Shown: piece by piece, positions 2,463-37,806 of the stretch | How positions within the stretch are numbered: position 1 is the first letter of the stretch | Layout of the letters: each line of letters starts with the position of its first letter | From: a virus | Virus record (IMG/VR): IMGVR_UViG_3300043463_000024 | Location: 1 to 43,495 of that record | Strand: one strand, 5' to 3' | Length of the DNA stretch: 43,495 nt | Translations under genes and position numbers: made by a program | The notes under the pieces: generated by a model | What the model was told of the DNA's origin: nothing | The model's input: the letters and a program-made list of their open reading frames with translations, nothing else | Database searches by the model: none

Positions 2463-3074
2463 ATGAGCAATCCATATAATGAAAGTCAACCTGTATACAT
2501 AAAAGACCCAACTGGAAGACTTGGAGGCGGTTCAAGTGTTTCCACGCCAGTTGGTCCACAAACTGGTGGAAAGATATTTTATTTTCCTTACACGCCGACT
2601 ATAACCAATGTTAATTCAACAAGTTACAGTAGTTACGATATGACTCATAGTAACTTCCAACAGAAGGCATTTGATATGTCAACTAACTCTGTTTTCTCAG
2701 TTACCGCTCCGATGATTGCTAGAAATTCCGAAGAAGCACAGAGTATTTTAAGTGGTGTTGATTTTTTTAGAGCCGCTATGAAAATGGGATTTGGTAAGAC
2801 CGACCCATTGGCTGGCCTTCCGCCAGTTGTCATGCATTTTTATGCATATGGTATTTATGAAGCAGTTCCAGTGGTTCTTACCGATTTCACTTGGAACTTG
2901 GATGACAGTATAGATTATATTGATTTTAAGAGTAACAACAAGAATGTAAGAATACCAACAACCAGCACATTTGTTTTGTCATTGACAACCACATATGGCG
3001 CTAAAAGAGTAAGAAACGAGTTCACATTGCAAAAATATGCATCTGGTGCTCTCAGAAATATAGGATATGTATAA
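2463..3074 (+). CDS. Baseplate/tail-tube-cap protein, gp48-like (tentative)
   Basis: This 203-residue structural protein is the first gene behind the late promoter. Its N-terminal 35 residues are Gly/Ser/Pro-rich and probably disordered. The C-terminal half carries a pattern I associate with tube-cap or tube-initiator proteins of T4-like phages: VPVVLTDFTWNL, a hydrophobic beta strand, PTTSTFVLSLTTTYGAKRVR, then FTLQKYASG. The stop overlaps the gp53 ATG as TAATG, so the two are coupled. The neighbours (gp53, hub, gp5-like spike) support a role at the tube-baseplate junction. The gp48 label is an inference from remembered family patterns, not a confirmed alignment; it could also correspond to another hub or tube adaptor. 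Confidence 0.55.
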   Translation: MSNPYNESQPVYIKDPTGRLGGGSSVSTPVGPQTGGKIFYFPYTPTITNVNSTSYSSYDMTHSNFQQKAFDMSTNSVFSVTAPMIARNSEEAQSILSGVDFFRAAMKMGFGKTDPLAGLPPVVMHFYAYGIYEAVPVVLTDFTWNLDDSIDYIDFKSNNKNVRIPTTSTFVLSLTTTYGAKRVRNEFTLQKYASGALRNIGYV

Positions 3075-3364
3075 TGTATGATAGCCGTAGTAATTACATA
3101 AAAACTCCAATCGTAAATAACACGTACATGGATATATTGGTTGATAGATATATATTTCTTGACCCAAACGATGAGGTATATGAAATAGAGCAAAAATATC
3201 ACAAGAGACCTGATTTGTTCAGTTATCATCGTTATGGAACATCAAAATATTGGTGGGTTTTTGCAAGAAGAAATATGAATACCATAATTGACCCTATAAA
3301 TGATTTTGTTGCTGGTGCTAAAATTAAAATACCTTCATTGAAAAACTTGGAAAATACAAAATAA
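3074..3364 (+). CDS. 53: gp53-like baseplate wedge protein
   Basis: A 96-residue protein with the gp53 signature: an N-terminal YIKTPIV segment, DPNDEVYEIEQKYHKRPDL, then SYHRYGTSKYWWVFARRN and a C-terminal GAKIKIPS. The DE.Y.I..KY..RPDL..Y..YG...YWW order is typical of gp53, a small LysM-like wedge component that clamps adjacent wedges around the hub. T4 gp53 is about twice as long, so this is a compact version, as in many environmental T4-like phages. Both ends overlap their neighbours by a TAATG junction, with an AGGA ribosome site upstream. Confidence 0.85.
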   Translation: MYDSRSNYIKTPIVNNTYMDILVDRYIFLDPNDEVYEIEQKYHKRPDLFSYHRYGTSKYWWVFARRNMNTIIDPINDFVAGAKIKIPSLKNLENTK

Positions 3365-6480: not shown

Positions 6481-8232
6481 ATGCCAAGAAAAAACTCAAA
6501 TGATATTGGTTTACCTGAACTTTTAAGACAGGGTAGAAAACGCGCCCAGAATCCAATTTCCAGTAAAATGGAAAGTGGTATATTCAAGGCAATCACCGTT
6601 GGTATACCAGACCCAGAAGGCAGAGGAAGACTTTCTGCCTATGTCCCACGATTAGGTGGAAACCCAGAAAACTATCAATTCTTTGAATATGCAAGTCCAT
6701 TTGGTGGACAAGCAGAAGGAAGTTCTTATGGATTTTTCGCTGCACCACCTCACGCAAACGTAACAATATTGGTGTTCTTTGCCGAAAATGGAGATATGAG
6801 AGAAGGATATTGGTTTGCCGTTACACAACAGGCACCATCTGTTGCATCTGGAGGGGCATTGGGAACCCCTCACCCCGACCCACAAACTGGTATTGGGGTT
6901 GGAGTTTTTGAAGGCGTTCCAGCGGCAAAAGATGGACGTTCAACGTTACATGATGCACAGCTTGGACCAGACGCTTTCAATGCAGATTTACCACCAATGT
7001 ATTCACCAGATGGTGAAATGATTCCACCGACTGGTGGAAATAGCCCAAGAAACGCAAACGCAGCGGAACAGGGAACATTCTCTGACGTGTTGCGAGGTGG
7101 AACAACTGCACATCCAGCACGTGATCCGTCTTACTCAACCCCACAGCCTTCTCGTGTATTTGGTATGGTTACACCTGGCCAGAGCGCAATCACATTTGAT
7201 GACGGTAGTGTTGGAGATGATGGGACTATACACCCAACTCAGATACGATTGACTACAGGAAATGGTGCAGCCGTCATCCTTGACGGAACAAATGATTTTA
7301 TATACATAGTCAACAGTAGCGGAACTGGTTGGGTTGAAGTCGGCGCAGATGGTGAAGTTTCAATATATGCTAAGGGTTCAATGAGTGTTCGTGCGGAAAA
7401 AGATATAAACTTTCGCGCTGATGAAAACATAAACTTTGATGCTGGAAAGAAAGTAAACATTCGCAGTGGAAATGACATGATGTTGACTTCCGCTGGCCAA
7501 ACACATATGCATAGTGCAGGAAATCAATTTTTCCAAACCGAAGGTTCGAATCACACAAAATCTGGTGCTAACATGTATGTTAGCACAGATGGTGTATTAC
7601 ATTTGAATGGTCCGGCAGCCACTCCTGCACTTAAAGTGTCTGGTGTTTCAATACCCGATATTCAAGGGCATTCATCCGTTGAAGCACCCGATGTGTCTGT
7701 TCCATACATGCCATCAGCGGAACCATACTTACGCCCAGCGCCACCAAGCACTGGGGGTGGTGGAATTGTGCCAGACCTTGCAAGTTATCAGAGCCAAGCA
7801 GATTCATTTAACACTCCATCTACTGGCGCGTTCAACGACCCACAAGCAAGTGCGCCAACTGGCGAAAATGGTAGACTAGATACCAGCACTCTAAAATCTA
7901 TTGGTGGGTCGCATCTAATGCGACCAGATGCAGCGGATGCTTACTTGAGAATGGTTGAAGCGGCAAGGGCAGATGGAATAACATGGTCTGTCACAGATAG
8001 TTATAGAACATATGAACAACAAGTAGATTGCGTGAGAAGAAAAGGACTGTATTCGCAGGGTGGTAAGTGCGCAAGACCTGGCACTTCACGACATGGTTGG
8101 GCATTAGCCGTTGACCTTGGTGGTGGTGCAAACAGTGAATATACACCGCAAAATAACTGGCTAGTAGCAAACGCTGGTAGATTTGGATTTAGAACTATCC
8201 CTGGCGAGCCTTGGCACTGGCAGTATGGATAA
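6481..8232 (+). CDS. 5: gp5-like baseplate spike with C-terminal M15 D-Ala-D-Ala carboxypeptidase domain
   Basis: A 583-residue protein. Residues 30-130 resemble the N-terminal OB-fold of gp5/VgrG spikes (IFKAITVGIPDPEGRGRLSAY and the following PFGG). Residues of about 240-350 are repetitive short beta strands (for example SMSVRAEKDINF, ENINFDAGKKVNI), the pattern of a gp5C or VgrG triple-stranded beta-helix needle. After a Pro/Ser/Thr linker the last 110 residues form an M15-family peptidase: SRHGWALAVDL gives zinc ligands H538 and D545, and EPWHW gives E576 and H579. T4 gp5 has a muramidase inserted between OB-fold and helix instead; none is visible here. The enzyme would cut peptide stems of peptidoglycan during tail penetration. 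Confidence 0.85.
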   Translation: MPRKNSNDIGLPELLRQGRKRAQNPISSKMESGIFKAITVGIPDPEGRGRLSAYVPRLGGNPENYQFFEYASPFGGQAEGSSYGFFAAPPHANVTILVFFAENGDMREGYWFAVTQQAPSVASGGALGTPHPDPQTGIGVGVFEGVPAAKDGRSTLHDAQLGPDAFNADLPPMYSPDGEMIPPTGGNSPRNANAAEQGTFSDVLRGGTTAHPARDPSYSTPQPSRVFGMVTPGQSAITFDDGSVGDDGTIHPTQIRLTTGNGAAVILDGTNDFIYIVNSSGTGWVEVGADGEVSIYAKGSMSVRAEKDINFRADENINFDAGKKVNIRSGNDMMLTSAGQTHMHSAGNQFFQTEGSNHTKSGANMYVSTDGVLHLNGPAATPALKVSGVSIPDIQGHSSVEAPDVSVPYMPSAEPYLRPAPPSTGGGGIVPDLASYQSQADSFNTPSTGAFNDPQASAPTGENGRLDTSTLKSIGGSHLMRPDAADAYLRMVEAARADGITWSVTDSYRTYEQQVDCVRRKGLYSQGGKCARPGTSRHGWALAVDLGGGANSEYTPQNNWLVANAGRFGFRTIPGEPWHWQYG

Positions 8233-8885: not shown

Positions 8886-9505
8886 CTTGAACGGTCAGTA
8901 ATAACTTTGTCCGCAAGACCCCACGCAACTGCTTCTTCTGCACGAAGGAAGGTGTCATACTTCATAGTTTCAAACAGTTCTTCAAACGTCTTGCCAGCAG
9001 AGTTATGTGAAACATAAATCTCTGTGAGACGCTTGTTCAAATCTTTTGATTCTTGAAGGTGGCGAAGGTTGTCTTCCATTTCCATTTCTTGAATATGGAC
9101 AGAACCCCCAGTTCCACGTGTCCCAGAAGAAACACGGTGAATCATGGTGCGAGAGTTTGGAAGAACATAACGTTTTCCAGCCGCTCCTGCTTGTGCAAGC
9201 AATGAACCCATGGATGCAGCCTGACCCATGACCATTGTTGATACATCAGGTTTGATAAACTGCATTGTATCGTAAATTGCTAGGCCAGCAGTTACATGCC
9301 CGCCTGGAGAGTTGATATAAAAATGAATGTCCTTTTCAGGATTGTCGGCTTCAAGGAATAGAAGCTGCGAACAAATCAAATCAGCTTGATGATCATCTAC
9401 CCCGCCAGTCAAAAATACTACCCGCTCTTTCAAAAGACGGGATTTTAGGTCCATCGCTCGTTCTCCACCAGCGGTGGTTTCCAATACCATTGGAACAAAT
9501 GTCAT
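8876..9505 (-). CDS. clpP: ClpP-family ATP-dependent protease proteolytic subunit
   Basis: This 209-residue protein is collinear with bacterial ClpP. It shows VPMVLE at the N-terminus, [19 protein letters not shown], then GQAASMG with the nucleophile S98, MIHRVSSG with H123, and KYDTFL with D184. The Asp aligns with E. coli D171, so the Ser-His-Asp triad is intact. ClpP forms a double heptameric barrel fed by ClpX or ClpA. A phage copy could redirect host proteolysis or process phage proteins; the role here is unknown. Residues 128-165 diverge most from the bacterial sequence. It lies 10 bases after the small gene at 9516 with its own AGAGGT ribosome site, on the minus strand between two late structural operons. 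Confidence 0.93.
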
Positions 9506-9917: not shown

Positions 9918-10277
9918 ATGAAAAGTTATAAAGGGTTCAGCACAAAAAATCCAGCAGCCATCAACAACATCCTTCAGGGTAAGGATTTGGTGATTGAGGA
10001 TGTATTGAACGAGATTATGACTCGTAAGGGTGAGCGCATTATGCTTCCAAACTACGGGTGTATCATTCATGATTTGATTTTTGAACCTCTGACGCCAGAT
10101 GTATCTGGACTTATCAAAGAAGATTTGGAACGAATTATAGACAACGACCCAAGAATAGAACTTCTTTCGGACATCACCCTTTTGGAACAAGAACACAGTA
10201 TTACTGCTACTATGATAGTGAAGATTTTACCAAGTGGCGAAGTTGAACAACTAACAATAGACTTAGAAAGAGAATAA
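9918..10277 (+). CDS. 25: gp25-like baseplate wedge protein
   Basis: A 119-residue protein of the gp25 (GPW_gp25) family, the conserved sheath-initiating wedge subunit of contractile tails. Family marks are a VLNEIMTRKGERIMLPNYG segment, LIFEPL, and NDPRIEL. Most family members carry Glu-Pro-Arg in the last motif; here it reads Asp-Pro-Arg. T4 gp25 is 132 residues. The start has a GAGG five bases upstream, and the gene opens a long late operon, with only 3 bases between its stop and the gp6 start. Confidence 0.92.
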   Translation: MKSYKGFSTKNPAAINNILQGKDLVIEDVLNEIMTRKGERIMLPNYGCIIHDLIFEPLTPDVSGLIKEDLERIIDNDPRIELLSDITLLEQEHSITATMIVKILPSGEVEQLTIDLERE

Positions 10278-10280
10278 CAA

Positions 10281-13200
10281 ATGGCTCAGGACAGAATAGA
10301 CAACTTATTTGCAAGCGAAAGCTGGTCAGCGGTATACACTGCTTTCACTAACATAAGCCTCAAAGCATATGACTTTGACAACATAAGAGAAGCCCTGCTT
10401 ACCTATGTTTCTCAGACATATCCTGACAAGTTTAACGATTACATCGCAAGTTCTGAGTTTATCGCAGTTCTTGACCTTGTTGCGTATCTTGGTCACTCAT
10501 TGTCTTTCCGTATGGATATGAACAGCCGTGAGAATTTCTTGGATACAGCAGAGCGCAGAGCAAGTATTCTTCGTCTTGCAAAAAATCTTGGGTATCAAAA
10601 AAATCGTCCATTGAACGCCCGTGGATTTATGAAAATCACATCAGTTATGACAAACCAACGCATATTGGATTCTGACGGAAAGAGCCTACAGTCAAAAAAG
10701 ATACGTTGGAATGATACCAATAATGAAAATTGGTATGATAACTTCGTTACCATTCTAAACGCCGCCCTACAGTATAACACCAAAACAAACTCTCCTGCAT
10801 CTTCGTTGGTTTCAAACGGAATTGTAAACAACATTCATTACGTTAATGAAAATCCAAAATACAAATCAGTTCGTTATTCTTTCACTGGTAAAGTGGCGGG
10901 AGAAACACGTGCGTTTGACGCAGTAAGAGCCGAAATAGATGGAGACATTATAACTGAATCGGAACCAAACATCCTGAACAATTTTAGTATTCTTTCAAGA
11001 GACGACTCATTCGGTCCATCAAGTGACAGAACAGGTTTCTTTGTCTATGCTAAAGCAGGACAACTAAGATTCAAGGACTTGAATTACACATCAAAAGTAT
11101 CAAACAGAATAGAACAGATACTTGACACTGATATTTCGAACAGTGACGTTTGGCTTCAACGAGTTGATAGCACAGGTCAATATAGTTCAAGTGTTGCAAT
11201 CCTTGATAATAGCACACGAGATACCGCCATATACAACTATTTCAGAACAGGAAATGGTGACGTTGCTTCCATAAGAACTAATGACGAAAACAGAGTTGAG
11301 ATCGTATTCCCAGATGGAGTTTACGGTAATTCTGCATACGGACGATACAGATTGTGGTATAGAATTGTTGACAATACAAACTTTTCTGTTGACCGTAGCG
11401 AAATCAAAAATGCATCAATAGTTATTCCATATATTGGTGAAGACGACAAGCCATATCTGCTTACAGTAACTCTACAATCAACTGTTGACTTTGTTGATAA
11501 CTTCGTTGGTGAAAATTACTATAGCGTAAAAAGATTGGCACCAAAGACATATTACACGCAGGACCGAATGGTCAATGGTCAGGATTATAATATCTTACCG
11601 TTGTCTCTTGGTTCAAGTGTGGTCACAAAAGTAAAAGCAGTGAATACTACATTTGCGGGGAACTCACGATATTTTGAGATGGATGATGTTACTGGTCACC
11701 ATTCAACAATATCCGTAACTGGAACTGATGGGTCAATATACATTGAGGATGACCCAGTGCAAATGGAAATGTTCTTCAACATGGCTAGTGGAGACATTGA
11801 CAGTTTTATACGAAACGATTTGACCGCCGCAATAAATCATCAGAGTATGGTGAACGCTTATTACTATGAGCACCGTTATGACGCTTCTGTCAACATGACT
11901 AACATTACATACAATGAATGGCAACGAGACCCAACTGACTTATCTAATAATCTGAAGGGAACATTTAGTAATTTTTTCTCTGTCACTCAGGGAGACAGCA
12001 TAAAAATTGGACATGAGTGGTATACCGTTGTAAAATATGTAGATTCAACTAAGTCAATTACTCTTGACCGCGTTGCTCCGTATGGCGAGATACTGAAAGA
12101 ACGTGTCCAAGCATACGAAAGAGTGTTTATTGATTCGGTTGTTGATTCCATAAAATATGAACTTTCCGAAAATTTCGTAAATTCATTCTATCTAGTTTAT
12201 GCGTTTACATTCCCAGAATGTGGAACGACAAATTGGACTATGATGACCGAGAGTGATGTGGCTAGTTTGGGAGAAGAAGAAGCCGCATTGTTTGCCGACT
12301 TGAAAATGAAAATATATGTAAAATACTTACCTGGTATTAGAACAAATGAGTCAAGATTTGTAGTTTCTTTCACTGGAAAGAAAATTGTATTTGAGAGTAA
12401 CGACCAAGTTAAATTCTATTATAGCAATGGAAACAAACAGGTAATTGACAATTCAACTAACTTGGCAAATACTGACACTATAATAATAAACTATGCAGAA
12501 GGTGAATATCAAGAAACAAGCAACGTAGCAGCTATGTCAAACGTTGGAATGACAGTTGGATTTGGTCCAGTTGTTAGTATCGATCACGTCAATAATACAT
12601 TTGACGTGTCGTTTGCATGTGCTGGCGGTCCAGAAAATATGAACTTTATTCAGAATAATGAAACATATTTAAATGTGTCTTACAGTCACTATATGGTTTC
12701 CCCAGAGTGTGTAGAAAAACAAGTTCCGTCTCCTGCAAATCCAATTGGGACTAGTTCCAATGGTTATATTGTTACTTTTCCACTTGATACTATTGATGAA
12801 ACATTGTCCACTACCACAGAAATCGCCACAAACATAAACACCGAAAATACAGATGAATTGAAAATATCTCTTCACAATGTATCACTTTATGTCGGAACAG
12901 GAAACATTGGTAATGTGGGCAACGTAGGAAACGTAGGAAACGTAGGAAATGTAGGAAACGTAGGAAATGTTTGCGGTAACGTAGGAAATGTTTGCGGCGA
13001 TGGGGTAGGCAACGTAGGAAATGGTTCATACTATGGAGACGTATATACAGTTATTACCTCAAGTCAGTTGGAAGGAGTCATGGGCCTTCATGGAAACATA
13101 ACAATGGATTACATAGACCGAGCGCAGAATGATGGGCATTTCTTCTTTATTGATGAGAGTGAAATGCTATCTGGTAAAACGTTACAGACAATAGAACTTG

Positions 13201-14660
13201 GAGACAGAGGAACCCAAGCGCCGTTTGTCACATTAGAATCTGATTCCAATGGCGTTCAAACATTCAAGTTTACGTTTATAAACAATCAAGATTTCAAGTT
13301 TTGCTCAGATGATTGTGACATTTTCATCAAGCAAAAAGCATATTCAGAAGTTACATTCATTACTACAGTTAATATAACCGCATCTCAGCTTGTGTTCAGA
13401 ACAGAAAGCGGAAAATTGATAGAACCTGAATATTTTGATGTTATTCTAATTTCTGATGATGTATACCGTGTTATATTTTGGTCACCAGATGTTCCAGTTA
13501 GCACACTAGTTGATGTCCTATATTCAAATATAGGGGATTCTGAACTATATCGTTTCCACTGCCGAGTAAGGGCGCAGTTCACAGATGTTGACTATAACAT
13601 ATATAGAGACAAGACATATTCGACAATCGGTTCATACGTGTATGATACTTATCTGACTCCAGAAGGGTATGTTGATAATACTAAGGTCAAACTAACATCA
13701 ATGGATAAGTCTGGAAATCCAAATGGACTACTGAATATATTCAAAGATCAGACATCCACTGACCATATGATTATAGAAACATATACAAAAAATGATATTA
13801 CATATACTCGTGCATCAGAATATGCAGTAGTAATTGAAGGAGATGTAAGTATTTCACTTCGTATGCCATCTACTGCAAGATTGGCTTACGATATAGAATT
13901 TGGTCGTTGGTATAAAAAGGTAGACGGACTATGGGAAATCATGCCAACTACTAGTAGCGATTATACAATCGCATCGGACGGAACACTGATATACGCCGGT
14001 GTCACATATAAGATTGTGGAAGGTAAAACATTCGTCACTGATAACTACATGAGTTTCCGTTGGGACCATTATGCAGATAAGGACAAGCGTATTGACCCAA
14101 GCACTTCAAACATCGTAGACGTATATGTTCTATCTTCGGAGTATGTAAGAAAAGTAAATCAGTGGATAGCAAGCAACTTCAAATCACAGATGCCATCGCC
14201 TCCTACATCATATGAGTTGAAAGCGATAATGAGCAAGATAAATGACAAGTCTGCCATTGCAGACCATATAAGCTATATTCCAGTTCGTTTCAAATACTTG
14301 TTTGGTTCATACGCAGAAGAACAAAACCAAGCGGTATTCAAAGTAGTGAAAAGAAAAGGAACACCATATACCGACAGTGAAATAAAGTCAATGGTATCTG
14401 CAAAAGTAAACGAGTATTTCTCAATTGAAAATTGGGATTTCGGAGATACATTCTACTTCTCAGAGGTCGCTGCATATCTTCATAAAGAACTGAACGAGTA
14501 TATTGCTTCCGTTGTGATTACTCCTAGATTCTCAAACTACAACTTTGCAGATATGCTAAGTATTACTAGCGAACCATACGAGATGTTTTTATCTGTCACC
14601 ACATCAGCAGACGTAAAAATAATCGATTCAATAACAAAATCAGAACTATCAGGTGGATAA
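10281..14660 (+). CDS. 6: gp6-like baseplate wedge protein, greatly enlarged
   Basis: A 1459-residue protein, more than twice T4 gp6 (660). The N-terminus matches gp6/gpJ-type wedge proteins: SYIASSEFIAVLDLVAYLGH-like segment, RMDMNSRENFLDTAERR, then LAKNLGYQ. The C-terminal 150 residues match the gp6 dimerisation end: YFSIENWDFGDTFYFSEVA, AYLHKEL, SVVITPRFSN, EPYEMFLSVT. The extra length is in the middle, including a Gly-Asn-Val tandem repeat at residues 874-915. gp6 dimers form the rigid ring of the wedge. Only 3 bases separate it from gp25 and 3 from the giant gene after it, consistent with the T4 order 25-6-7. Confidence 0.9.
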   Translation: MAQDRIDNLFASESWSAVYTAFTNISLKAYDFDNIREALLTYVSQTYPDKFNDYIASSEFIAVLDLVAYLGHSLSFRMDMNSRENFLDTAERRASILRLAKNLGYQKNRPLNARGFMKITSVMTNQRILDSDGKSLQSKKIRWNDTNNENWYDNFVTILNAALQYNTKTNSPASSLVSNGIVNNIHYVNENPKYKSVRYSFTGKVAGETRAFDAVRAEIDGDIITESEPNILNNFSILSRDDSFGPSSDRTGFFVYAKAGQLRFKDLNYTSKVSNRIEQILDTDISNSDVWLQRVDSTGQYSSSVAILDNSTRDTAIYNYFRTGNGDVASIRTNDENRVEIVFPDGVYGNSAYGRYRLWYRIVDNTNFSVDRSEIKNASIVIPYIGEDDKPYLLTVTLQSTVDFVDNFVGENYYSVKRLAPKTYYTQDRMVNGQDYNILPLSLGSSVVTKVKAVNTTFAGNSRYFEMDDVTGHHSTISVTGTDGSIYIEDDPVQMEMFFNMASGDIDSFIRNDLTAAINHQSMVNAYYYEHRYDASVNMTNITYNEWQRDPTDLSNNLKGTFSNFFSVTQGDSIKIGHEWYTVVKYVDSTKSITLDRVAPYGEILKERVQAYERVFIDSVVDSIKYELSENFVNSFYLVYAFTFPECGTTNWTMMTESDVASLGEEEAALFADLKMKIYVKYLPGIRTNESRFVVSFTGKKIVFESNDQVKFYYSNGNKQVIDNSTNLANTDTIIINYAEGEYQETSNVAAMSNVGMTVGFGPVVSIDHVNNTFDVSFACAGGPENMNFIQNNETYLNVSYSHYMVSPECVEKQVPSPANPIGTSSNGYIVTFPLDTIDETLSTTTEIATNINTENTDELKISLHNVSLYVGTGNIGNVGNVGNVGNVGNVGNVGNVCGNVGNVCGDGVGNVGNGSYYGDVYTVITSSQLEGVMGLHGNITMDYIDRAQNDGHFFFIDESEMLSGKTLQTIELGDRGTQAPFVTLESDSNGVQTFKFTFINNQDFKFCSDDCDIFIKQKAYSEVTFITTVNITASQLVFRTESGKLIEPEYFDVILISDDVYRVIFWSPDVPVSTLVDVLYSNIGDSELYRFHCRVRAQFTDVDYNIYRDKTYSTIGSYVYDTYLTPEGYVDNTKVKLTSMDKSGNPNGLLNIFKDQTSTDHMIIETYTKNDITYTRASEYAVVIEGDVSISLRMPSTARLAYDIEFGRWYKKVDGLWEIMPTTSSDYTIASDGTLIYAGVTYKIVEGKTFVTDNYMSFRWDHYADKDKRIDPSTSNIVDVYVLSSEYVRKVNQWIASNFKSQMPSPPTSYELKAIMSKINDKSAIADHISYIPVRFKYLFGSYAEEQNQAVFKVVKRKGTPYTDSEIKSMVSAKVNEYFSIENWDFGDTFYFSEVAAYLHKELNEYIASVVITPRFSNYNFADMLSITSEPYEMFLSVTTSADVKIIDSITKSELSGG
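12900..13025 (+). repeat. In-frame 9-bp tandem repeat encoding Gly-Asn-Val inside gp6
   Basis: The unit GTAGGAAA(C/T) recurs in phase with the reading frame and encodes Gly-Asn-Val or Gly-Asn-Ile about eight times in a row. Two Cys-containing interruptions (Val-Cys-Gly) and further copies follow, for 42 residues (874-915). Glycine falls at every third position. Near-identity of the DNA units indicates recent expansion by slippage. Confidence 0.95.
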
Positions 14661-14663
14661 AAT

Positions 14664-17600
14664 ATGAAAGATAAAGTATACGATTTTCTTCCAGCACATT
14701 TAAAAAACAGCGAATTAGAGAACATTTTTAATGCTACTCTGGACCGCGTTTTTTCAAAAGGCAAAGTAGAAAAAATCAGATCATTTGTGGGTAGAAAAGA
14801 AAAGGGTATTTACAATTCCAAAAACTCTTATGTTGAATATCCATTCTCACAATCTTATCGTAATGACTATTCATTTGAACCAGTTTATGCAAATCCTAAT
14901 ATACAAGATAATGTATTTTATGATGACCTATTGAACTTAATATACAATAAGGGTGGTTTGATAAATGACCATCGTCGTCTGTTTACAAATGAATATTATA
15001 CTATAAACTTGCCAATTGACGCAGATAAGTTCTGTAATTGGGCGATGTATTATTGGGTATACCCTGGGTTTGATGAATCAATATCTGGTTCTAATCTAAA
15101 GCATTATGTGACTATTGATAAAAATCAAAACAACTGGTGGGGAGTGAATAACTCTTGGTATCATTTTGATGATATAAAAAATTTGTTGACTGTTGATAAT
15201 AAGCATCTAATCAAGAAGGCGTCTCGTCCTATTATTGAGTTTGATAAAGGACTTGAATTGTCTACAACCAGTTCTACAAAGCCAATTGAAGACTTGGATT
15301 TTGAAGAACCAACCTTCGCATTATATGGACCAACTGGGTTGTCTCAGGAAGGAAGTAAGATTTTCTCATATGTTACTGGGACTGCCGAAGATTATCCATA
15401 CGATGCAGAATTGATGCTTTACCCAAAACTGATAGCTGGTGATTACCAGAGTGAATATTCATACATTATTAGCCTGCCAGAATCATTAACATGTAAATTG
15501 AACGGCGATGATTTAAGTATATACATACCAAGCAATTTCAAATACAGAAACGTCCGTCAGGAAAAACCAGAAGGATTAGTTTCATTCATTAATCTTGAAT
15601 ATGAACCATCATCTGAAAATGACATTGATGTTTATGTAAATGGGGTTCGCCAGATTGGAAATTATTCGTATGATAATAGAACAATCACTCTTGATACTCC
15701 AACATCGGAATATGTTTATGTTGATTATTCCACTGCTTCTCCGATTGATGAAAAAAAGCCATATACTTTTCAACGAGTAAATCCATCAGTTGAATATAAC
15801 CCTGATGGGGTAAGTCATGTGAACGTTGAGTTTTCATACTCAACTATCTTTGAGCATTTGATTCGTATCATTGAGACGGCAGTTGGCCTTGAAGGCGAAC
15901 CAATATCAAGTAGCAACTTTAGAACTTTGATTGGGACAGACAAAACGAAATTGAATGACCAAGGCAGCGTTATGATAAAGAGTGGCGTCGATTTAGCGTT
16001 TGCTTATTTCGCAATCAACAGAGACGACTTCAACCCATTTGCTGCGGTAGAGTCACTATCAACATACTACAATAGTTTCAAAAATAAACTAGTTTTGACC
16101 ATTCAGGAAATTCTAAAGTCTGCTGACCAAGGCAATAAAACTGACACAGAGATATTAGAAGAAGCACTCAAAACAATTTCCATCAACAAAAGCACTGTCT
16201 ACAAAGTATTTGACAGTGTGTTTATGCTTGATTATGGTGTCAAAAATAATCACTACCAAGAACTGACAGTAACAAACGTAGCCGGTTCTCTTGAACAGTT
16301 TATGCCACAATTTGACAACCCAGTTGTGAGCGACAGTGATGTGGCAGTATACGTAAATGGTGTAATTCAAATATATGGTCACGATTATACGATATCATCT
16401 ACTGGTGGAGAAATACTATTCAAAACATATGCCCCATCTTCAACTGACATAATATCGGTTAGAAACTATATTAATCGTGAAGATTTGCGTATTCCGCCAT
16501 CATCCGTAAAATTGGGCATCTCTCCTTCATACATACCATCATTTCAAACAGACAATGAATTTTCAGAACCAGTTGAGTTCATTATAGGACACGATGGGTC
16601 AAAAACACCACGTTGGAATGATAGAACAGATAACATCCTACTTGAATACGAAATCCGTGTGTATAACAAACTGTCAGTATATGAAACAAATATTGACTAT
16701 ATGAACTATGGAGTTTTTTCAACCGCAAACACCGACTATTCATACGCAGAAAAGAATCATATTGCTTATCCATTCTTCAAAAAATGGATGGTCAAGAACG
16801 AAATAAGCAATATGTATAATGATACTTTCAATCCAAATGATTGGAAGACTTGGAACTACTCTGCTCTCAATTCAGCACTTCCGGGAAATTGGAGAGGTAT
16901 ATACAGTTATCTATATGGAACCGACAACCCACTTATTGAACCTTGGAAGGCGGCTGGATTAAGCCAGAAGCCAGAAGACTTTGATATTGACTATGGCCCT
17001 GATTACACATCTCCTTCTTTTTGGGCTATGCTTATTTCAGACAATATGCTTGATGTTCCTGTTCCAGTTTATACAAGTGGCGAGTTGAAGTCAATAGATG
17101 ACTTACTATATAGTGGGTCAATTACAAATCAAGTTATTCAAACTCTGAAATCCGATTGGTATTTTGGTGATGGCTCACCAGTCGAAATGGCTTGGAAGCG
17201 TTCAAGTGAATATTCATTCATTTCGTTTATAGAAATGATGCTTCAACGACCATTTGATGTAATTTCAAAATACCGTGATAAAATAAATTACATTGTATCC
17301 TTGTATACAAAAATACTTGGCATCAATTTTAATGCGGTGGAAAGAGAAAGAAACAATTACCAATTCAAACTTGGTTCTAAACTATCTGGATTTGTAAATA
17401 ACTTTGTCCTTCTAAGTGAAAACGAATCTCTTGTGAACAGTAAATATTCAGAAATTCCATCTGATAATTATAATCTGTTTATTCACGCAAGCGTTCCATC
17501 GAGAACTGAAAATTTTAGTGCTATCACAATTGAAAGAGTGTCATTGGATAAACAGTATCCAACATATTCAATTGACAACACTGCCGATTATCTTGTTGGC

Positions 17601-20600
17601 GATATAGTTATCAATCCTAACGATGGAAAATATTACAAGAGAAAGATAGCAGGGCAGACAGATAAAGAAGAAGCGCAGTCTATCACATTTGATTATTCTG
17701 CTTGGATATTGGTTCCACAACCAAAGGTAAAACAGTTTGGTTTCAGAATCCATGGATACATTGACCTTCACCCAGAGTTCCCAGCCTTTGAATGGGACAC
17801 TGCAAGTGGAGAGAAAGTATACGAAACCGTTGGTGACAAACTGGTCATTGCAAACTGGAAGCAAAATACATTCTATCGTCAAAATGATTATGTGCTGTAT
17901 GACAACAAACCATTCGTTTGCTTAGAAACTCACACATCGTTGACTACATTCGGAGACTCATTGACAAAGTGGAAGGCGGTTGGAACATGGCCACGTGTGA
18001 ACAAGACTTATGCTTATGGATATAATAAGGTAGACGAAACCCGTGTCAAGACATACAAGTATGGTGAAGTTCTAACTTCCGCCGATGATGTTGTTCATCT
18101 TCTTGTTGGCTATCAAGAATACCTACAATCACGAGGATGGAAGTTCCTTGATATTTTTGAGAACTCGTATCCAATCAATTTTGAAAATCTGATTCCACAA
18201 TTCTTAGACTGGACAGCCGAAAATCATACAGTGGGCGAATACATTTCGCTAACGCCACTGAAAGAAAATGGCGAATTTGATTCTCCACACGGTGTTGCAA
18301 AAGTTGGTAAGGACACATTCAAAAATTACTATCGTGTTGTTGATGCCGAAGGAAATAAAATTTCCGAGAATGACATAAGTTTCTACACAACTGGAAATTC
18401 ATTGACTTGGAAATCTAGTCATCCAGTATATGGAATGATGATTGACATAACTGACATTGAACACGCTTTTGTTGTTGACCGTGTTGACTCATATAACGAT
18501 ATCATATATGACCCGCTAAACCATAACAGAAATCTTCGTATGCTGATTGACTGCAACCGAGCAGTTGATTGGGATGGGACAATGGCAACCGATGGCTACA
18601 TTGTGTATGGAAACAAGATGATTCCAAACTTTGAAACAGTTATTGATGAAATTCAAAACTACCGAGACACCATACTTGACCAAAGTTTAGAAAACATCAA
18701 TCTGTTGAAGGCAAGCCATATTGGTTTCTTCCCACGTGAATATTTTAACCGTATGGGAATTGAACGAGAAAGCCAACTTGAATTTTACAAAGGTTTCTTA
18801 GCTGGAAAAGGAACAAAAGAAAGCATTAACCGTCTAGTAAACCTTGAAAGCAACATCACTGATATTGAAAACAGCGATGTGTGGGCGTTCAAGATGGCAG
18901 AATATGGTAACAATAACTCACGTAGAAAAGAATCCAAAGTTGTAAACATATCAGACTTGCGAAAGACTCCTTATGTTGTGACATATGATAACATAGAATA
19001 TCCTATGGAAACAACAACTGCTATTTCACCAGTTCCTCTAAAAACTACTGGGTATGTAGATTCAACCTATATAAGTCATGTTGTTATGAATACTTCATCT
19101 CTTACATCTCTGAATGTTTCAAAAATATTTGAAGGCGACATTGCTTGGGTTCAGTTTGATGACGACCGTGAATGGGATGTATTGCGTTTGAGTGAGATTG
19201 CAGAAATAGTATATCTTGGTGAAACTCCTGATGCTCAACTTTACATAGCGTTGACGAATGAAATACCAACTGATAAGGAAATATTCCTTCGTGTTGTTTC
19301 AAGTGGCATACAGCCTGAAATACAAGGATACTTCTATCCAGTGTATGAATCTACGCAGACATATAATGGAATGCCAGTATATCTGTATCTGATTTTTGAC
19401 ATGAACTATGAAGCCGTGATTGTTGAAATTGATACTTCAACAAGTAACAGTGTTTACGTTCCAACTCAATCAATCCCATATGTTGAAGCAAACGGTTCTG
19501 TAGTAAATCCAAATATTGTTGATGGCGATACCTTGGTAATCAATGGAAATTCATATGTGTATGACCCAGTTGGTGTTGGAACTACGAGAGTTCAGATATA
19601 TGGTTCTGAGTTCTCAGTAAACCCATTTGTTCAGGCTGGTGAAAGAATACGAATTTCGGTATTTGATAGTTTTGGACAATTGGCGAACAACAACTCAACT
19701 GTTACATTTACTGGGACCGTTGCAGAAACTGAAAATCCTGTAACTTCTGAAATAGGAGACCAAATTAATATTGATGGGACGATACTAACTGTTGCAGCAA
19801 GTTCTGATTCGGAAATAGTAATTGTTTCTGATAATAATGAATTGACAGAAGTTCCAGTTGGCTCAACCATATTGGTCGATGGTCAAACAGTTGCAACATT
19901 TGAGAAGATAGTAGTGAATGGAACTACTAATAATCTAACGTTGTCATCTACAAAAGCACTGAGCGTCAACGGGACAATCATTACGTTTACCGTTCCAACT
20001 GGCACAACAATAGGAACAAATTCTACTGAACTATTCTCAAATGTGACTACTCCAGTGCCATCTATTCAATTGGCCTCTGCTATGACTAATTACCTACCAG
20101 GTAATATAACTGTAAGTAACGGTATTGATGCGCCATACGTTCTCACAACGTCTGCATATACATACAATAGTAATACAAAAGTTATAACTTTTGATACTCC
20201 GATACAAGATGGGCAAGTTGCTTCGGTTCAAACTGAAACTCAAATATTGGTCGCGGACTCAATCACCACGTCATTTACTCTTACAGGACCGTTCAACACT
20301 GCTGACCGTATTATAGTTGGAAGCTATACAGAAGGAACAGAATATAGCATAAATGGTTCAAACATCGTGTTTGTGACTGCCCCAACTTCTGATGTTACTG
20401 TGACTTATGAGACTGACATTCTTGTAAATCAAGATAGCGTTGTGGATATTACAGTTCAACTTGTAGCACAACCTGTGGCACAATTCTTGGATATTGATGA
20501 TATCGTATCGATCATAAATGCATCATCTGCACCTGTCACTGCGAGTAAGTCAGCATCAAACTCATTGAACATTGAATATTCTGGTGCGGTTCTTACAATG

Positions 20601-23600
20601 AACGGTTCCATATTGATAGACTTTGGCATGTCATCTACAAGTTCGTTTAGAGAGTCTACATATCAAAATGTAGTAGACCAAATAGATTCGGTCGTTGATT
20701 TGACTTCATATCTAAATTCAAACGAACAGATAGTTATAACAACAACAAACCCAACAGTTACTCTGTCTGGAACTGCACTTACTCATATCGGTATGGATGA
20801 CGGCGTATACAACGCAGTCGCCAACCCTACTAAAAACAGTATAGTTGAGCAAATCAACAACTTGAACATTCTAAATCTTCAGGCAAGTGTTACCACTTCT
20901 GGTATAGAAATATATAAAAATAATCACCTTCTAACCATCAGTGAAGTAACTACTGGCGCTATGTCAAGACTTGGATTTACAAGTTCAACGGTTGTAGTTA
21001 GGGCGTCCGACCTTATCGCAGAACAGATAAATGCACAGGCGTTTGCAAACGATAGTTCTATAGGATATGCTAGTGTTGTTGACAGTAGAATCAAGATAAC
21101 AAGTCCACAAAAATCAATCGCAATTTCCAGTCTAAATGGAAATGCGCTAGATGATATAGGGATTCCTGCGGGAACATATCTGGCAACTACAACAATATTG
21201 TCCTCTGCGTCTGCCTTCAAAGACCAAATAAATTCAGTCGCTACAGACGTTACCGTGTCAATATCGAGTGATGGACGAATGATATTTGTTGGAAACAACA
21301 ACGTAATTTCGTTTGCCGGAACGGAACAAGAAATACTTGACAAGATTGGATTGTATAGAGAATACACCAGTATCACAAGTAGTAATGACTTCAAGGTTAT
21401 GGACTGGAAATCCGTGCGTTACACACCAAATTATAATGGAGAAACATTCGGTGAGTTCTATGACAATCTTGGATTGAATGGAATATCATTTATTTGGGCT
21501 GATGAATACGATGGCAATGGTTGGGCGGTTTTGGCTCGTAAACCAGATGGAACTCTAACCGTCATGCAGCGTCAGGCACCACGAGTGAATGTTGAAAACA
21601 TAAATCGTTTGATCATAACTGATGATCAAACGAATCATCGTATGTATAGTTTGTATGATCCTTTGAATTTGAAATTCCCAGGGGATGTTGGTGCTAACTT
21701 GTCATATGTTTCCTGGCAAGACCCTGCGCAGTATGAGTTTGATGTTACACGAGACAAGTGGACTGACAGTCACGTTGGAGAATTTTGGTGGAATACCACA
21801 AACGCAAGATATTATCGCTACAATGATTATGGTGATGTCAATGGAAACATTGATGCCAACTTTGCTAGAAAATATTGGGGAAAACTAGTTCCTAATTCTG
21901 AGATAAAAGTATATCGTTGGACTGTATCAACTACTATACCAGATGACGTAACAAAATTCAACAAAGTAGTATATAATGACCCAGCGACAAATTCAAATGT
22001 CGTAAAGTATTACTTCTGGACAGCCGAGTCTATCGGACAAGAGGAAGATGATTTGACGCCATCAGATGTGAAAATGATGATAGAAAATCGTAAAATGTCT
22101 GATAACTTTATTCCTATTGCGAATAACAAAATATTGGTTTCAAATAGTAAAGAAGTCCTAAAGGGACAACGAGTAAAATTTGAACTTGATTATTACACTG
22201 ATAAATCAAGAAACGAATCTCATAGTGATTGGCATCTTGTATCTGAAAAAGATTCTACTCCAATCCCAGATGAATTATGTCAAGAATTTATAGATTCAAT
22301 TTCTGGGGCAATTATAGAAGATAGCATTTCAAACGTTATCGTCGCAGAAGAAATTGATGAGATAGGAAATGTCATAATAAGTGGAATTGATTTCTTGAAC
22401 TATTGTGACCTTACAGATTCAGTCGTTATGATCAATTCAAATTTGGTTCAGCCATCGTTTTTTAGTTACAATGGAGACACATTGGAGATAGACTATTCAT
22501 ACGCCGCTATGGTTGGTGATGTAGTGAGAGTTTACAAGCTATCTAGAAACTTCAACAACTGGTTCAAAAATCTTCCAGAAGCTAGAAGAAATTTTGGATA
22601 CATAGTAAATGAATATATGAAGCGAAAGGTTATAGGCGGTTTCGCATACAACTGGAAAGAATACGTGTCTGATTATGAGAACTCATTAGTTTCTTTGGAC
22701 TACTGGTCACTCAATTCAAAGTATGACACCATAGATTATTTTGAATATCTGTCAAAAACTAAGTCTTTTGACATGAATGGGTTGTATGAATCTGGAATAC
22801 AATCCTTCAAAGTATCAACCGATGAGGATGGGTATTACTTCCCAATTGACGGTGTTCTTCGTATGGTTCATAGAACCAATACTTCGTTGAGAATTTCTCA
22901 CGAAAATGTAATTACTCCAAAATTGAATACTGAGTATTATGAAAATGCACTATCAGTGCAAACAATTGAGTTTATGAATATGATGAAGGAATATGCAGAG
23001 CCATCATTTATGAAAAAACTATTCTTGGAAATGGTAAAATATATGCTGACTGAAAAGACATATCCTGATTTTATATTCAAGACAAGTTACTTTGACTTGA
23101 TTATGAAAAATAATGGACTGAAGCAAAGTGCAATATACCTAAGAGACTATTATGATGATATGATTGATTACGTCAACGATACCAAACCATATCATGCAAA
23201 AATAAGAAATGTAACCAATCGTTTCTCCACGCAGGAAAGCATGAACAATTCGGTGACTGACATTTCAAACATGACAGTTCGTATGAAATTTGGAAATTCT
23301 GATTATTATACCATTATAGTTGACGAATCATTTGATGCTGATCCTATCATATACGATATAGATAAAAAGTTCAATCCTTCTCCCGAACCATTGACGCTAA
23401 CAGTTTATATCAACGGCGTGAAAATACGAGACCAATATTATTCAATAGAAAATGGACATTTGGTTTTCAACACAAATGGCGATATTCTTGATGGCAGCAC
23501 TTCCGGGGCTATTAGTATTGAAGTCGGAGACAGAATAACCGTATCAAGAACAAATAGTCGTTATGCGTTGAACAGAGTGGAAGGAAACGCCACCATAAAT

Positions 23601-24068
23601 ACAGAAAACGATTATGATGGCGGAACTCTGTTACAGTCTATAACTTCGTATACAAACGTTGCGGGGGGAATTGACACTGGTTTCATTACATCCAAGTCAA
23701 GAGATATTCTAGTGCTTACGCAAAATGGATACACAGATGAGACGAGAACAACATTGACCGAAAAGAAGTTTTTTGTTTATGACCAATTTGGTAGAGGATA
23801 CATTGTTGAAGTTGACAAAATGGGAACCATCAGCCAGTTTGATGGAGATACCGTAACTGTCAACCAGCAAAGTTATTTCAAGTCTGCCAAGGGTGATACT
23901 AAACGACTATCAATATTGGACAATGGCTCACAGATAGAATTTTTCCTATATGACAAGAAGGATGGAACTGAATTGAGAATTTCAGACCGTGGAGTTTACA
24001 CTGGTAAAATGTCTAACTTCTCAAATGGAGATGCCATTTACACTGTAAAATCAGTAGTCGAAATATAA
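14664..24068 (+). CDS. Giant virion baseplate protein at the gp7 position (3134 aa)
   Basis: One uninterrupted 3134-residue frame with AGGTGG before its ATG. The N-terminal region (YDDLLNLIYNKGGLINDHR, then PIDADKFCNWAMYYWV) and the late region (FYKGFLAGKGTKESINRL near residue 1380; TKPYHAKIRNVTNRF near 2850) are patterns I associate with very large baseplate proteins of T4-like environmental phages. It contains at least four copies of a small beta-sandwich motif (V.VNGV.Q....Y....I.F..P...D) near residues 318-352, 555-602, 2579-2630 and 2906-2963, and a run of about five 75-residue repeats at 1939-2232, each ending in Ile/Phe-Gly-hydrophobic. T4 gp7 is 1032 residues; homology to it is inferred from gene order and weak pattern. 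Likely an arm or fibre-bearing wedge protein. Confidence 0.7.
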   Translation: MKDKVYDFLPAHLKNSELENIFNATLDRVFSKGKVEKIRSFVGRKEKGIYNSKNSYVEYPFSQSYRNDYSFEPVYANPNIQDNVFYDDLLNLIYNKGGLINDHRRLFTNEYYTINLPIDADKFCNWAMYYWVYPGFDESISGSNLKHYVTIDKNQNNWWGVNNSWYHFDDIKNLLTVDNKHLIKKASRPIIEFDKGLELSTTSSTKPIEDLDFEEPTFALYGPTGLSQEGSKIFSYVTGTAEDYPYDAELMLYPKLIAGDYQSEYSYIISLPESLTCKLNGDDLSIYIPSNFKYRNVRQEKPEGLVSFINLEYEPSSENDIDVYVNGVRQIGNYSYDNRTITLDTPTSEYVYVDYSTASPIDEKKPYTFQRVNPSVEYNPDGVSHVNVEFSYSTIFEHLIRIIETAVGLEGEPISSSNFRTLIGTDKTKLNDQGSVMIKSGVDLAFAYFAINRDDFNPFAAVESLSTYYNSFKNKLVLTIQEILKSADQGNKTDTEILEEALKTISINKSTVYKVFDSVFMLDYGVKNNHYQELTVTNVAGSLEQFMPQFDNPVVSDSDVAVYVNGVIQIYGHDYTISSTGGEILFKTYAPSSTDIISVRNYINREDLRIPPSSVKLGISPSYIPSFQTDNEFSEPVEFIIGHDGSKTPRWNDRTDNILLEYEIRVYNKLSVYETNIDYMNYGVFSTANTDYSYAEKNHIAYPFFKKWMVKNEISNMYNDTFNPNDWKTWNYSALNSALPGNWRGIYSYLYGTDNPLIEPWKAAGLSQKPEDFDIDYGPDYTSPSFWAMLISDNMLDVPVPVYTSGELKSIDDLLYSGSITNQVIQTLKSDWYFGDGSPVEMAWKRSSEYSFISFIEMMLQRPFDVISKYRDKINYIVSLYTKILGINFNAVERERNNYQFKLGSKLSGFVNNFVLLSENESLVNSKYSEIPSDNYNLFIHASVPSRTENFSAITIERVSLDKQYPTYSIDNTADYLVGDIVINPNDGKYYKRKIAGQTDKEEAQSITFDYSAWILVPQPKVKQFGFRIHGYIDLHPEFPAFEWDTASGEKVYETVGDKLVIANWKQNTFYRQNDYVLYDNKPFVCLETHTSLTTFGDSLTKWKAVGTWPRVNKTYAYGYNKVDETRVKTYKYGEVLTSADDVVHLLVGYQEYLQSRGWKFLDIFENSYPINFENLIPQFLDWTAENHTVGEYISLTPLKENGEFDSPHGVAKVGKDTFKNYYRVVDAEGNKISENDISFYTTGNSLTWKSSHPVYGMMIDITDIEHAFVVDRVDSYNDIIYDPLNHNRNLRMLIDCNRAVDWDGTMATDGYIVYGNKMIPNFETVIDEIQNYRDTILDQSLENINLLKASHIGFFPREYFNRMGIERESQLEFYKGFLAGKGTKESINRLVNLESNITDIENSDVWAFKMAEYGNNNSRRKESKVVNISDLRKTPYVVTYDNIEYPMETTTAISPVPLKTTGYVDSTYISHVVMNTSSLTSLNVSKIFEGDIAWVQFDDDREWDVLRLSEIAEIVYLGETPDAQLYIALTNEIPTDKEIFLRVVSSGIQPEIQGYFYPVYESTQTYNGMPVYLYLIFDMNYEAVIVEIDTSTSNSVYVPTQSIPYVEANGSVVNPNIVDGDTLVINGNSYVYDPVGVGTTRVQIYGSEFSVNPFVQAGERIRISVFDSFGQLANNNSTVTFTGTVAETENPVTSEIGDQINIDGTILTVAASSDSEIVIVSDNNELTEVPVGSTILVDGQTVATFEKIVVNGTTNNLTLSSTKALSVNGTIITFTVPTGTTIGTNSTELFSNVTTPVPSIQLASAMTNYLPGNITVSNGIDAPYVLTTSAYTYNSNTKVITFDTPIQDGQVASVQTETQILVADSITTSFTLTGPFNTADRIIVGSYTEGTEYSINGSNIVFVTAPTSDVTVTYETDILVNQDSVVDITVQLVAQPVAQFLDIDDIVSIINASSAPVTASKSASNSLNIEYSGAVLTMNGSILIDFGMSSTSSFRESTYQNVVDQIDSVVDLTSYLNSNEQIVITTTNPTVTLSGTALTHIGMDDGVYNAVANPTKNSIVEQINNLNILNLQASVTTSGIEIYKNNHLLTISEVTTGAMSRLGFTSSTVVVRASDLIAEQINAQAFANDSSIGYASVVDSRIKITSPQKSIAISSLNGNALDDIGIPAGTYLATTTILSSASAFKDQINSVATDVTVSISSDGRMIFVGNNNVISFAGTEQEILDKIGLYREYTSITSSNDFKVMDWKSVRYTPNYNGETFGEFYDNLGLNGISFIWADEYDGNGWAVLARKPDGTLTVMQRQAPRVNVENINRLIITDDQTNHRMYSLYDPLNLKFPGDVGANLSYVSWQDPAQYEFDVTRDKWTDSHVGEFWWNTTNARYYRYNDYGDVNGNIDANFARKYWGKLVPNSEIKVYRWTVSTTIPDDVTKFNKVVYNDPATNSNVVKYYFWTAESIGQEEDDLTPSDVKMMIENRKMSDNFIPIANNKILVSNSKEVLKGQRVKFELDYYTDKSRNESHSDWHLVSEKDSTPIPDELCQEFIDSISGAIIEDSISNVIVAEEIDEIGNVIISGIDFLNYCDLTDSVVMINSNLVQPSFFSYNGDTLEIDYSYAAMVGDVVRVYKLSRNFNNWFKNLPEARRNFGYIVNEYMKRKVIGGFAYNWKEYVSDYENSLVSLDYWSLNSKYDTIDYFEYLSKTKSFDMNGLYESGIQSFKVSTDEDGYYFPIDGVLRMVHRTNTSLRISHENVITPKLNTEYYENALSVQTIEFMNMMKEYAEPSFMKKLFLEMVKYMLTEKTYPDFIFKTSYFDLIMKNNGLKQSAIYLRDYYDDMIDYVNDTKPYHAKIRNVTNRFSTQESMNNSVTDISNMTVRMKFGNSDYYTIIVDESFDADPIIYDIDKKFNPSPEPLTLTVYINGVKIRDQYYSIENGHLVFNTNGDILDGSTSGAISIEVGDRITVSRTNSRYALNRVEGNATINTENDYDGGTLLQSITSYTNVAGGIDTGFITSKSRDILVLTQNGYTDETRTTLTEKKFFVYDQFGRGYIVEVDKMGTISQFDGDTVTVNQQSYFKSAKGDTKRLSILDNGSQIEFFLYDKKDGTELRISDRGVYTGKMSNFSNGDAIYTVKSVVEI
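21605..21633 (+). repeat. Perfect 11-bp inverted repeat inside the giant structural gene
   Basis: TCGTTTGATCA (21605-21615), a 7-base loop, and TGATCAAACGA (21623-21633) pair perfectly. It lies in coding sequence (residues about 2314-2324) with no T-run after it, so it is not a standard terminator. Role unknown. Confidence 0.6.
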
Positions 24069-29317: not shown

Positions 29318-30298
29318 ATGGCAAAAATAGTAATCGGTGACTTAGATGTGTTTTATCTAAGCTATGATGAACCAAACAAAGAAGAACATTGGGCGAATCT
29401 TTTGCAGAAGTTCCCGTTTGCTAAACGAGTGGATGGCGTCAAAGGATTTGACAATGCACATAAAGAATGTGCAAGGCAAAGTGAAACTGAACGTTTTATT
29501 ACGATTGATGGCGACAATATTGTCAGCGACGAAAAGTTCTTTGACCTTGAAATTAGTATCCCAGAAAATACAAACATGGCAAACTCAGTTCTTAGTTGGT
29601 CGGCAAAGAATGTAGTAAACGGTCTGGTGTATGGAAATGGTGGAATTAAGTGTTGGCCAGTTCAACTTGTGTTGGACATGAAAACCCACGAAAACGCTGA
29701 TAACGAATCAAAGAAGTTAGACTTCTGTTGGGATTTGAATTACATTCAAATGAACAATGTCTACTCACATGTGTTCAATGCTGGTTCTCCATTTCAGGCG
29801 TTCCGTTCAGGTTATCGTGAAGGTGTAAAGATGTCTCTGGATCAAGGACATGTTGTTCCAGCAAAGCAGTTCAAAAAACGTATATGGCCAAAGAACTATG
29901 AGCGTCTTTTGACTTGGTGCAATATAGGAGCAGACGTTGAAAATGGACTATGGGCCATATACGGCGCAAGATTGGGATGCTTGGAAACTAATATAACAAA
30001 GTCGCTTCCAATTGATGGTATATCAAACTATGAATGGTTTAAGGATTATTTTGACGCTGAAATTCTTCCAGAATTTAAAAATGGCGATGAGTATTGTAAT
30101 AAAACCAAAGTTCACTGGAGCTACGATAAACTGTATGATGCCACACTTGATGTTGGCGACCAATTGATGGATTCATTAGCAATGGAACTATGCGACCCGA
30201 CTCCTGAGATGTCTGCGTTCTTCAAACGAGTTTATGTGAACCCACCACGGGTGGCAAACCCAATAGCCACCGAAAAACAAACTGGATGGGACAAGTAA
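29318..30298 (+). CDS. Putative glycosyltransferase with IDGDN motif
   Basis: A 326-residue protein that begins IVIGDLDVFYLSYDEPNKEEHWANLL, then KRVDGVKGFDNAHKECA, and ERFITIDGDN with D64-x-D66. This layout, in which a Ser-Tyr-Asp-Glu-Pro segment precedes a Gly-Asp-Asn DxD, is known from glycosyltransferase-like proteins of large phages. The C-terminal half has many Trp and Tyr residues. The stop overlaps the first radical SAM start (TAATG). Sugar and acceptor are unknown. Confidence 0.75.
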   Translation: MAKIVIGDLDVFYLSYDEPNKEEHWANLLQKFPFAKRVDGVKGFDNAHKECARQSETERFITIDGDNIVSDEKFFDLEISIPENTNMANSVLSWSAKNVVNGLVYGNGGIKCWPVQLVLDMKTHENADNESKKLDFCWDLNYIQMNNVYSHVFNAGSPFQAFRSGYREGVKMSLDQGHVVPAKQFKKRIWPKNYERLLTWCNIGADVENGLWAIYGARLGCLETNITKSLPIDGISNYEWFKDYFDAEILPEFKNGDEYCNKTKVHWSYDKLYDATLDVGDQLMDSLAMELCDPTPEMSAFFKRVYVNPPRVANPIATEKQTGWDK

Positions 30299-31884: not shown

Positions 31885-31888
31885 ATAA

Positions 31889-36756: not shown

Positions 36757-36774
36757 ATGATAAACTCCTTCGCT

Positions 36775-37758: not shown

Positions 37759-37777
37759 ATTTATGTCAAAATAAATG

Positions 37778-37785
37778 CATAAATA
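37778..37785 (+). promoter_or_regulatory. Possible late box before radical SAM gene
   Basis: CATAAATA followed by TAATAATAG resembles the late box at 24083, which is followed by TAATAAATC. It is in the right place for the TTG-start gene at 37807, but the first base departs from the better examples and the region is very AT-rich. Confidence 0.35.
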
Positions 37786-37806
37786 TAATAATAGTAGGAT
37801 TTAATT

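Follow-up and report, generated by a model that had tools for sequence, protein, structure and literature searches.

A giant structural protein encoded beside baseplate wedge genes carries five diverged flagellin IN-like repeats in constant number

Results and discussion

The window, i.e. the whole 43,495-nucleotide stretch of viral DNA analysed here, encodes a giant structural protein in which five much-diverged tandem units resembling the flagellin hook IN motif are kept at the same number among close relatives, next to a cassette that differs widely between them. The best explanation, which we hold with moderate confidence, is a baseplate wedge protein that takes the place of gp7, in which the five IN modules would form a scaffold of fixed length and small domains would serve as exchangeable fittings.

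The giant gene and its family

The gene and two parts of its product are located as follows:

14664..24068, + strand: giant wedge-type structural protein of 3134 aa, PHROG 10938 (ORF call, profile match and synteny)
14664..18953, + strand: conserved N-terminal core, residues 1-1430 (mean identity 58.7% over 561 orthologue pairs)
17853..17945, + strand: CBM_5_12-like stretch, residues 1064-1094 (E 4e-4; 20.8 bits, under the Pfam cut-off of 26.2)

ORF analysis bears out the single 3134-residue reading frame that an earlier note on this DNA had described. The whole protein matches the profile of PHROG 10938 in four stretches (E 7.4e-181, 604.5 bits), a family annotated as 'virion structural protein' and placed in the PHROGs category head and packaging. 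Its named members are PA5oct gp355, Atu_ph07 gp180, RaK2 ORF070, PBECO4 gp538, SCTP-2 gp140, Vibrio 2.275 gene 424 and Phosso 294; the window protein has in common with these seven jumbo-phage proteins the family, the place in the gene order and the conserved core regions at residues 1-1430 and 2341-2600. In the core at residues 1-1430, aromatic and charged residues are conserved, and identity even to distant phages is 22-29%. The CBM_5_12 match recurs below the cut-off in the orthologues of PA5oct (E 0.0011) and SCTP-2 (E 0.0068).

For comparisons between orthologues, 47 complete orthologues and the window protein were thinned at 95% identity, giving a set of 34 proteins. The first set of loci comprised the best 80 of 99, and two later scans took the best 80 of 479 and the best 80 of 111. 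All loci were retrieved with residues 1-1500 and 1120-1600, so the repeat array played no part in their selection. A tblastn search of phage records with residues 1501-2232 gave no match.

A place after the gp25 and gp6 genes

The window contains a cluster of baseplate genes upstream of the giant gene:

3074..3364, + strand: small baseplate wedge subunit (phrog_7145)
6481..8232, + strand: hub/lysozyme-like protein with a VanY peptidase domain (profile matches)
9918..10277, + strand: gp25-like wedge subunit (phrog_261, phrog_43)
10281..14660, + strand: gp6-like wedge subunit of 1459 aa (phrog_10646, E 2e-220; phrog_219, E 4e-12)

The giant gene lies directly 3' of the gp25-like and then the gp6-like gene. 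The same gp25-gp6-giant ORF order was found in all seven annotated phage regions examined, including those of PA5oct, Atu_ph07 and RaK2, with the qualification that the SCTP-2 stretch shows just an unnamed large gene upstream and that some of the genes concerned are named only generically in RaK2 and Vibrio 2.275. Relatives of gp25 and gp6 were present at 85 and 86 of 88 loci, respectively, and the database record of the PA5oct orthologue carries an ESI-MS/MS mark. The suggestion in the earlier note that this is a large baseplate protein is thus supported through gene order. Because the giant gene stands after those for gp25 and gp6, its product is the best candidate for a giant occupant of the gp7 place in a jumbo myovirus baseplate wedge.

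By analogy with T4 and XM1, the protein would pair with two gp6 and one gp25, probably as one copy in each of the six wedges. The XM1 wedge (gp16)2-gp17 is described as homologous to (gp6)2-gp7, with an N-terminal helix-turn-helix of gp17 lying in the core bundle, a domain shared by gp16 and gp17, and with tail spikes held by unresolved gp17 loops (PMC10457771). T4 gp7 is reported to sit in the wedge as a monomer, in six copies, with domains that bind gp9 and gp10 and shift position upon activation (PMC3004832). Gene order is shared with T4 gp7 and XM1 gp17, and the role of wedge partner and attachment carrier is probably shared as well, whereas size is very different, 3134 aa in the window against 1032 aa for T4 gp7 and 242 aa for XM1 gp17 (PMC10457771). 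Searches found no sequence or profile kinship to solved gp7, XM1 gp17 or other wedge proteins, at a sensitivity that distant kin could escape. Profiles A4, A5 and A6 matched a single solved chain at E<=1, a chitinase (E 0.51), an NCBIfam scan gave no match, and hhalign did not match the N-terminus of the giant protein to that of its gp6-like neighbour (E 0.29). The model of residues 1110-1610, the putative gp7-like part, was too poor for a fold search (pLDDT 47.9). For Atu_ph07, the baseplate proteins listed by the authors include gp181 and gp182 and leave out the orthologue gp180 (PMC6102473).

Within the baseplate cluster, a ClpP protease gene (8876-9505, - strand, E 2e-62) lies antisense to its neighbours, with relatives at 75 of the 88 loci; RaK2 and PBECO4 have, beside the giant gene and on the opposite strand, a gene annotated as ATP-dependent protease. 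A short tandem DNA repeat with periods of 9-27 bases (12899-12997, + strand) encodes a Gly-Asn-Val run in the gp6-like protein.

Five old repeats in a conserved chain

Profiles, alignment and a structure model delimit five tandem units at residues 1943-2232 (DNA 20490-21359), with lengths of 58, 57, 58, 64 and 53 aa:

20490..20663, + strand: IN repeat 1, residues 1943-2000
20664..20834, + strand: IN repeat 2, residues 2001-2057
20835..21008, + strand: IN repeat 3, residues 2058-2115
21009..21200, + strand: IN repeat 4, residues 2116-2179
21201..21359, + strand: IN repeat 5, residues 2180-2232

The earlier note had placed about five tandem repeats of 75 residues at 1939-2232. Their presence, number and approximate position stand, but the units measure 53-64 aa; a length of 75 is ruled out by the unit alignment (about 58 aa), and the span first given, 294 aa for five units, itself amounts to 59 aa each.

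Taken literally, the self-alignment proposed as a check came out against repeats, as self-BLASTP of the window protein at E<=10 returned no off-diagonal match. By pairwise shuffling, only three of the ten repeat pairs were clear (2-4, 2-5 and 3-4, for each of which no more than one of 500 shuffles scored as high); the score of pair 1-2 was reached by 6/500, those of 3-5 and 4-5 by 10/500 each and those of the other four by 43-245/500. Profiles built across orthologues with one repeat position left out recovered the held-out repeat at E<1e-3 in 34, 34, 34, 34 and 31 of the 34 proteins for positions 1-5, and shuffled copies in 0/34 at every position. The held-out repeats of the window protein scored E values of 2.7e-8, 2.9e-11, 1.1e-5, 9.2e-11 and 1.4e-6, and a profile built without any window repeat found all five of its units (E 3.5e-12 to 6e-15), together with an extra weak match at residues 1695-1739 (E 0.0017).

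Different units within one protein are on average 23% identical, whereas corresponding units in two orthologues share 43.5-52.7% identity. On this comparison of sequences, the array is an old one. Features specific to single units are conserved, among them S-D-G-R in unit 5 and glycines that are invariant close to where units 2-5 end.

Constant copy number

The repeat profile counted five copies in 34/34 non-redundant full-length proteins. Five were likewise present in each of the 60 orthologous ORFs that extend past residue 2300, among 80 orthologous ORFs from the best 80 of 99 loci, the 20 others being cut by contig ends. Recounts on the two later scans gave 60/60 (10 more ORFs stop short) and 42/42 (8 more are cut); these scans overlap the first set, so the counts are not additive. 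Across the 34 proteins, the array block is 282-295 aa long, and its mean pairwise identity (48.2%) is close to that of residues 2233-2880 (48.3-49.2%). The earlier note had described a repeat array in the middle of an otherwise conserved chain, which is supported, and had supposed that the array, as a possible protruding arm, may vary between strains; this variation fails on these counts and lengths, and a variable repeat number is thereby rejected. Repeat arrays in phage tails are often presumed to be variable in length, whereas here a much-diverged array stays at five in the close relatives counted.

Outside this clade, the repeat profile did not find the five-unit array in any of the seven named phages, nor in 24 ORFs of other clades, of which nine are truncated by contig ends and two belong to a single locus (L160). 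The counterpart of window residues 1601-2232 is 56 aa long in the orthologues of RaK2 and PBECO4 and 105 aa long in that of Vibrio 2.275, while Atu_ph07 and Phosso have about 570 aa there that the repeat profile does not recognize. Both flagellin-IN modules and giant wedge-linked proteins belong to kinds already known; the five-unit array was not seen in the named relatives.

Orthologues of other clades (L199 and others) reach 4000-5100 aa without an IN array. The SCTP-2-like orthologue at L160 consists of two ORFs of 2167 and 1642 aa, and that at L161 is a single ORF of 3787 aa.

Variable stretches and the V.VNG motif

Variable stretches and small sandwich-type motifs are distributed along the chain as follows:

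15585..15749, + strand: V.VNG-type copy, residues 308-362 (firm)
16302..16481, + strand: V.VNG-type copy, residues 547-606 (firm)
19974..20489, + strand: exchangeable cassette INS1, residues 1771-1942 (length among orthologues 12-216 aa)
20148..20249, + strand: V.VNG-like copy in the cassette, residues 1829-1862 (joint profile E 5e-4, likely)
20328..20429, + strand: V.VNG-like copy in the cassette, residues 1889-1922 (joint profile E 7e-4, likely)
23304..23588, + strand: second variable stretch INS2, residues 2881-2975 (length among orthologues 13-188 aa)

Length also varies, among the 34 proteins, at the C-terminus (159-564 aa) and over the first 1430 positions (1416-1605 aa). L065 and L020, two relatives with 90% identity in the core, share 37% in INS1 and 87-100% in the segments other than INS1. 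In INS1, L065 is 64% identical to the window protein (108 aligned residues), whereas these two share 50% in the core and 42% in the array, and the next relative, L003, is also unlike L065 in INS1 (31%). A tree built from the conserved parts calls for three changes in whether a long cassette is present, with details left unsure by long branches, including that of the window. INS2 measures 128 and 21 aa in L018 and L032, whose cores are 89% identical. From these sequences, the cassette differences fit an exchange or a gain and loss of small domains. A tblastn search of phage records with INS1 gave no match, and a scan of viral contigs for the cassette found only a contig bearing the window's own sequence.

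At least four copies of a V.VNG motif had been proposed. Two are firm and two likely, while a fifth at residues 2908-2943, within INS2, is doubtful (joint profile E 0.043; best shuffled E for this profile 0.37). Single-copy profiles of the two firm copies each find the other weakly (E 0.0037 and 0.47). These two are conserved in orthologues, and the cassette copies follow the cassette.

Likeness to the flagellin hook IN motif

When array regions were scanned alone, Pfam Flagellin_IN (PF07196) matched 14 of the 34 (best E 2.7e-7), and the window's own array gave no match at E<=1. The family's repeats have in common with the IN domains of flagellin and FliD the domain fold, the profile match in those 14 orthologues and I-N in four of the five window units; the window protein differs from flagellar proteins in its five head-to-tail units and in being encoded in a phage structural gene cluster. 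An AlphaFold model of residues 1600-2250 based on 34 sequences (mean pLDDT 85, pTM 0.50) contains five successive units, each with one helix and then three strands. With Foldseek, the top match of this model in the PDB, and the sole one at E<=0.001, was Helicobacter pylori FliD (6iwy, E 2.5e-4), at a probability of 0.66 and TM-scores of 0.09 and 0.15. VIA-align 2 placed flagellin 9n8g_C first (Z 11.4, rmsd 1.9 over 84 residues), with FliD chains at Z 6.6-8.7 (5h5v_A, 8.7).

All flagellin and FliD matches in the VIA list fall in model residues 148-399 (protein residues 1747-1998), the only part that this list tests well, so that folds missing elsewhere carry no meaning. Because the 84 aligned residues spread over 252, the alignment would take in, in the model, repeat 1 and a hairpin that precedes the cassette, leaving out the cassette itself. 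The putative hairpin opens the matching stretch:

19902..20018, + strand: hairpin of module 1 (tentative assignment), residues 1747-1785

The flagellin/FliD domain fold is accordingly found for module 1, and modules 2-5 are tied to it through their profile kinship with module 1. The cassette region (model residues 184-337) matches phage proteins, namely CBA120 TSP4 (Z 8.6) and Gp48/Gp49 of phage B2 (Z 8.7), with its second half modelled poorly (pLDDT 56-69, model residues 251-320). Among phage proteins in BFVD, similar predicted folds occur in baseplate J-like, tail sheath and tail fibre proteins (Foldseek E down to 7e-6), with low TM-scores and with a matching part that may be either the array or the sandwich domains. 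Judged by the titles listed, a literature search returned nothing on the IN motif in phage baseplates.

Hits of the array profile to Rheb and an antifreeze protein in the PDB (E 0.16-0.66) were set aside as chance, as was a SlpA hit of the array under the Pfam cut-off (E 0.012); the PHROGs scan of the array gave single chance-level hits only.

Proposed role and alternatives

Taken together, we infer from these data a place in the virion, a stiffness and spacing role for the array and a binding role for the cassette. On the analogy of the gp7-type loops and domains in XM1 and T4, long stretches on the wedge body would hold peripheral attachments. In the window's clade, one such stretch would be the row of five flagellin-IN modules, acting as a stiff scaffold, constant in length, that determines the distance or the angle between the wedge body and outer parts. 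The fixed module number argues for a geometric constraint over a variable receptor binder. The small sandwich domains, which lie around residue 2900 and in a loop of module 1, would be exchangeable fittings and the likely site of adaptation to partners or hosts.

It is unlikely that the array is instead a receptor-binding arm touching the host surface, possibly by flagellar mimicry, and conserved as its receptor is. IN-type domains are described as occupying parts of flagellin and of the FliD cap that are exposed (PMC7316729), and fENko-Kae01, which belongs to the wider family, has been called a flagellum-specific jumbo phage, but its match spans only residues 610-1442, outside the array, and RaK2 and PBECO4 have just their 56 aa across this region. 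A fixed copy number, with an identity similar to that of residues 2233-2880, is also unlike a host-range determinant.

We give little credence to a plain spacer or a relic of domain duplication with no constrained role. The divergence of the units and the clades that do without them would suit it, yet exactly five units in 60/60 ORFs, with their glycines and S-D-G-R kept in place, speak for constraint.

A tail-fibre or whisker protein encoded beside the wedge genes is quite improbable. The size of the protein, its beta-rich repeats and its cassettes would be in keeping with a fibre, and the generic PHROGs annotation and the lack of a gp7 match are compatible with it; against this, the giant gene follows gp25 and gp6 even in distant phages, and the core that these phages share is conserved.

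An elaboration in which six wedge proteins with five IN modules each would encircle the baseplate with thirty flagellin-type modules, on the plan of a larger FliD cap, the count serving as a ruler for baseplate diameter and the module 1 cassette as a plug-in socket swapped between phages, is highly improbable.

If the gp7-place scaffold is correct, flagellin-type modules are used in a phage baseplate, and residues 1771-1942 are the place to seek adaptation to partners or hosts. A fixed array beside a swapped cassette would mean that scaffold and adaptable fitting are separable within one chain.

Other genes in the window

Downstream, four radical-SAM ORFs lie at 30286-39108 (+ strand) near a RuBisCO-like gene. 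Those at 30286-31884 and 31889-33304 score slightly under the Pfam cut-off, and those at 34104-35369 and 37807-39108 carry SPASM domains; a search of the 88 loci, which cover flanks only, did not find the first of the four. The RuBisCO-like ORF (39171-40211, + strand, 346 aa) matches the large-chain catalytic domain PF00016 (E 3e-28) and contains the stretch GGIDFIKEDE; it had no match in 13 related phage records, several of them fragments, in a search run without a positive control. A further ORF at 41622-42389 (+ strand) encodes a RIO1/APH-like kinase (E 3e-5).
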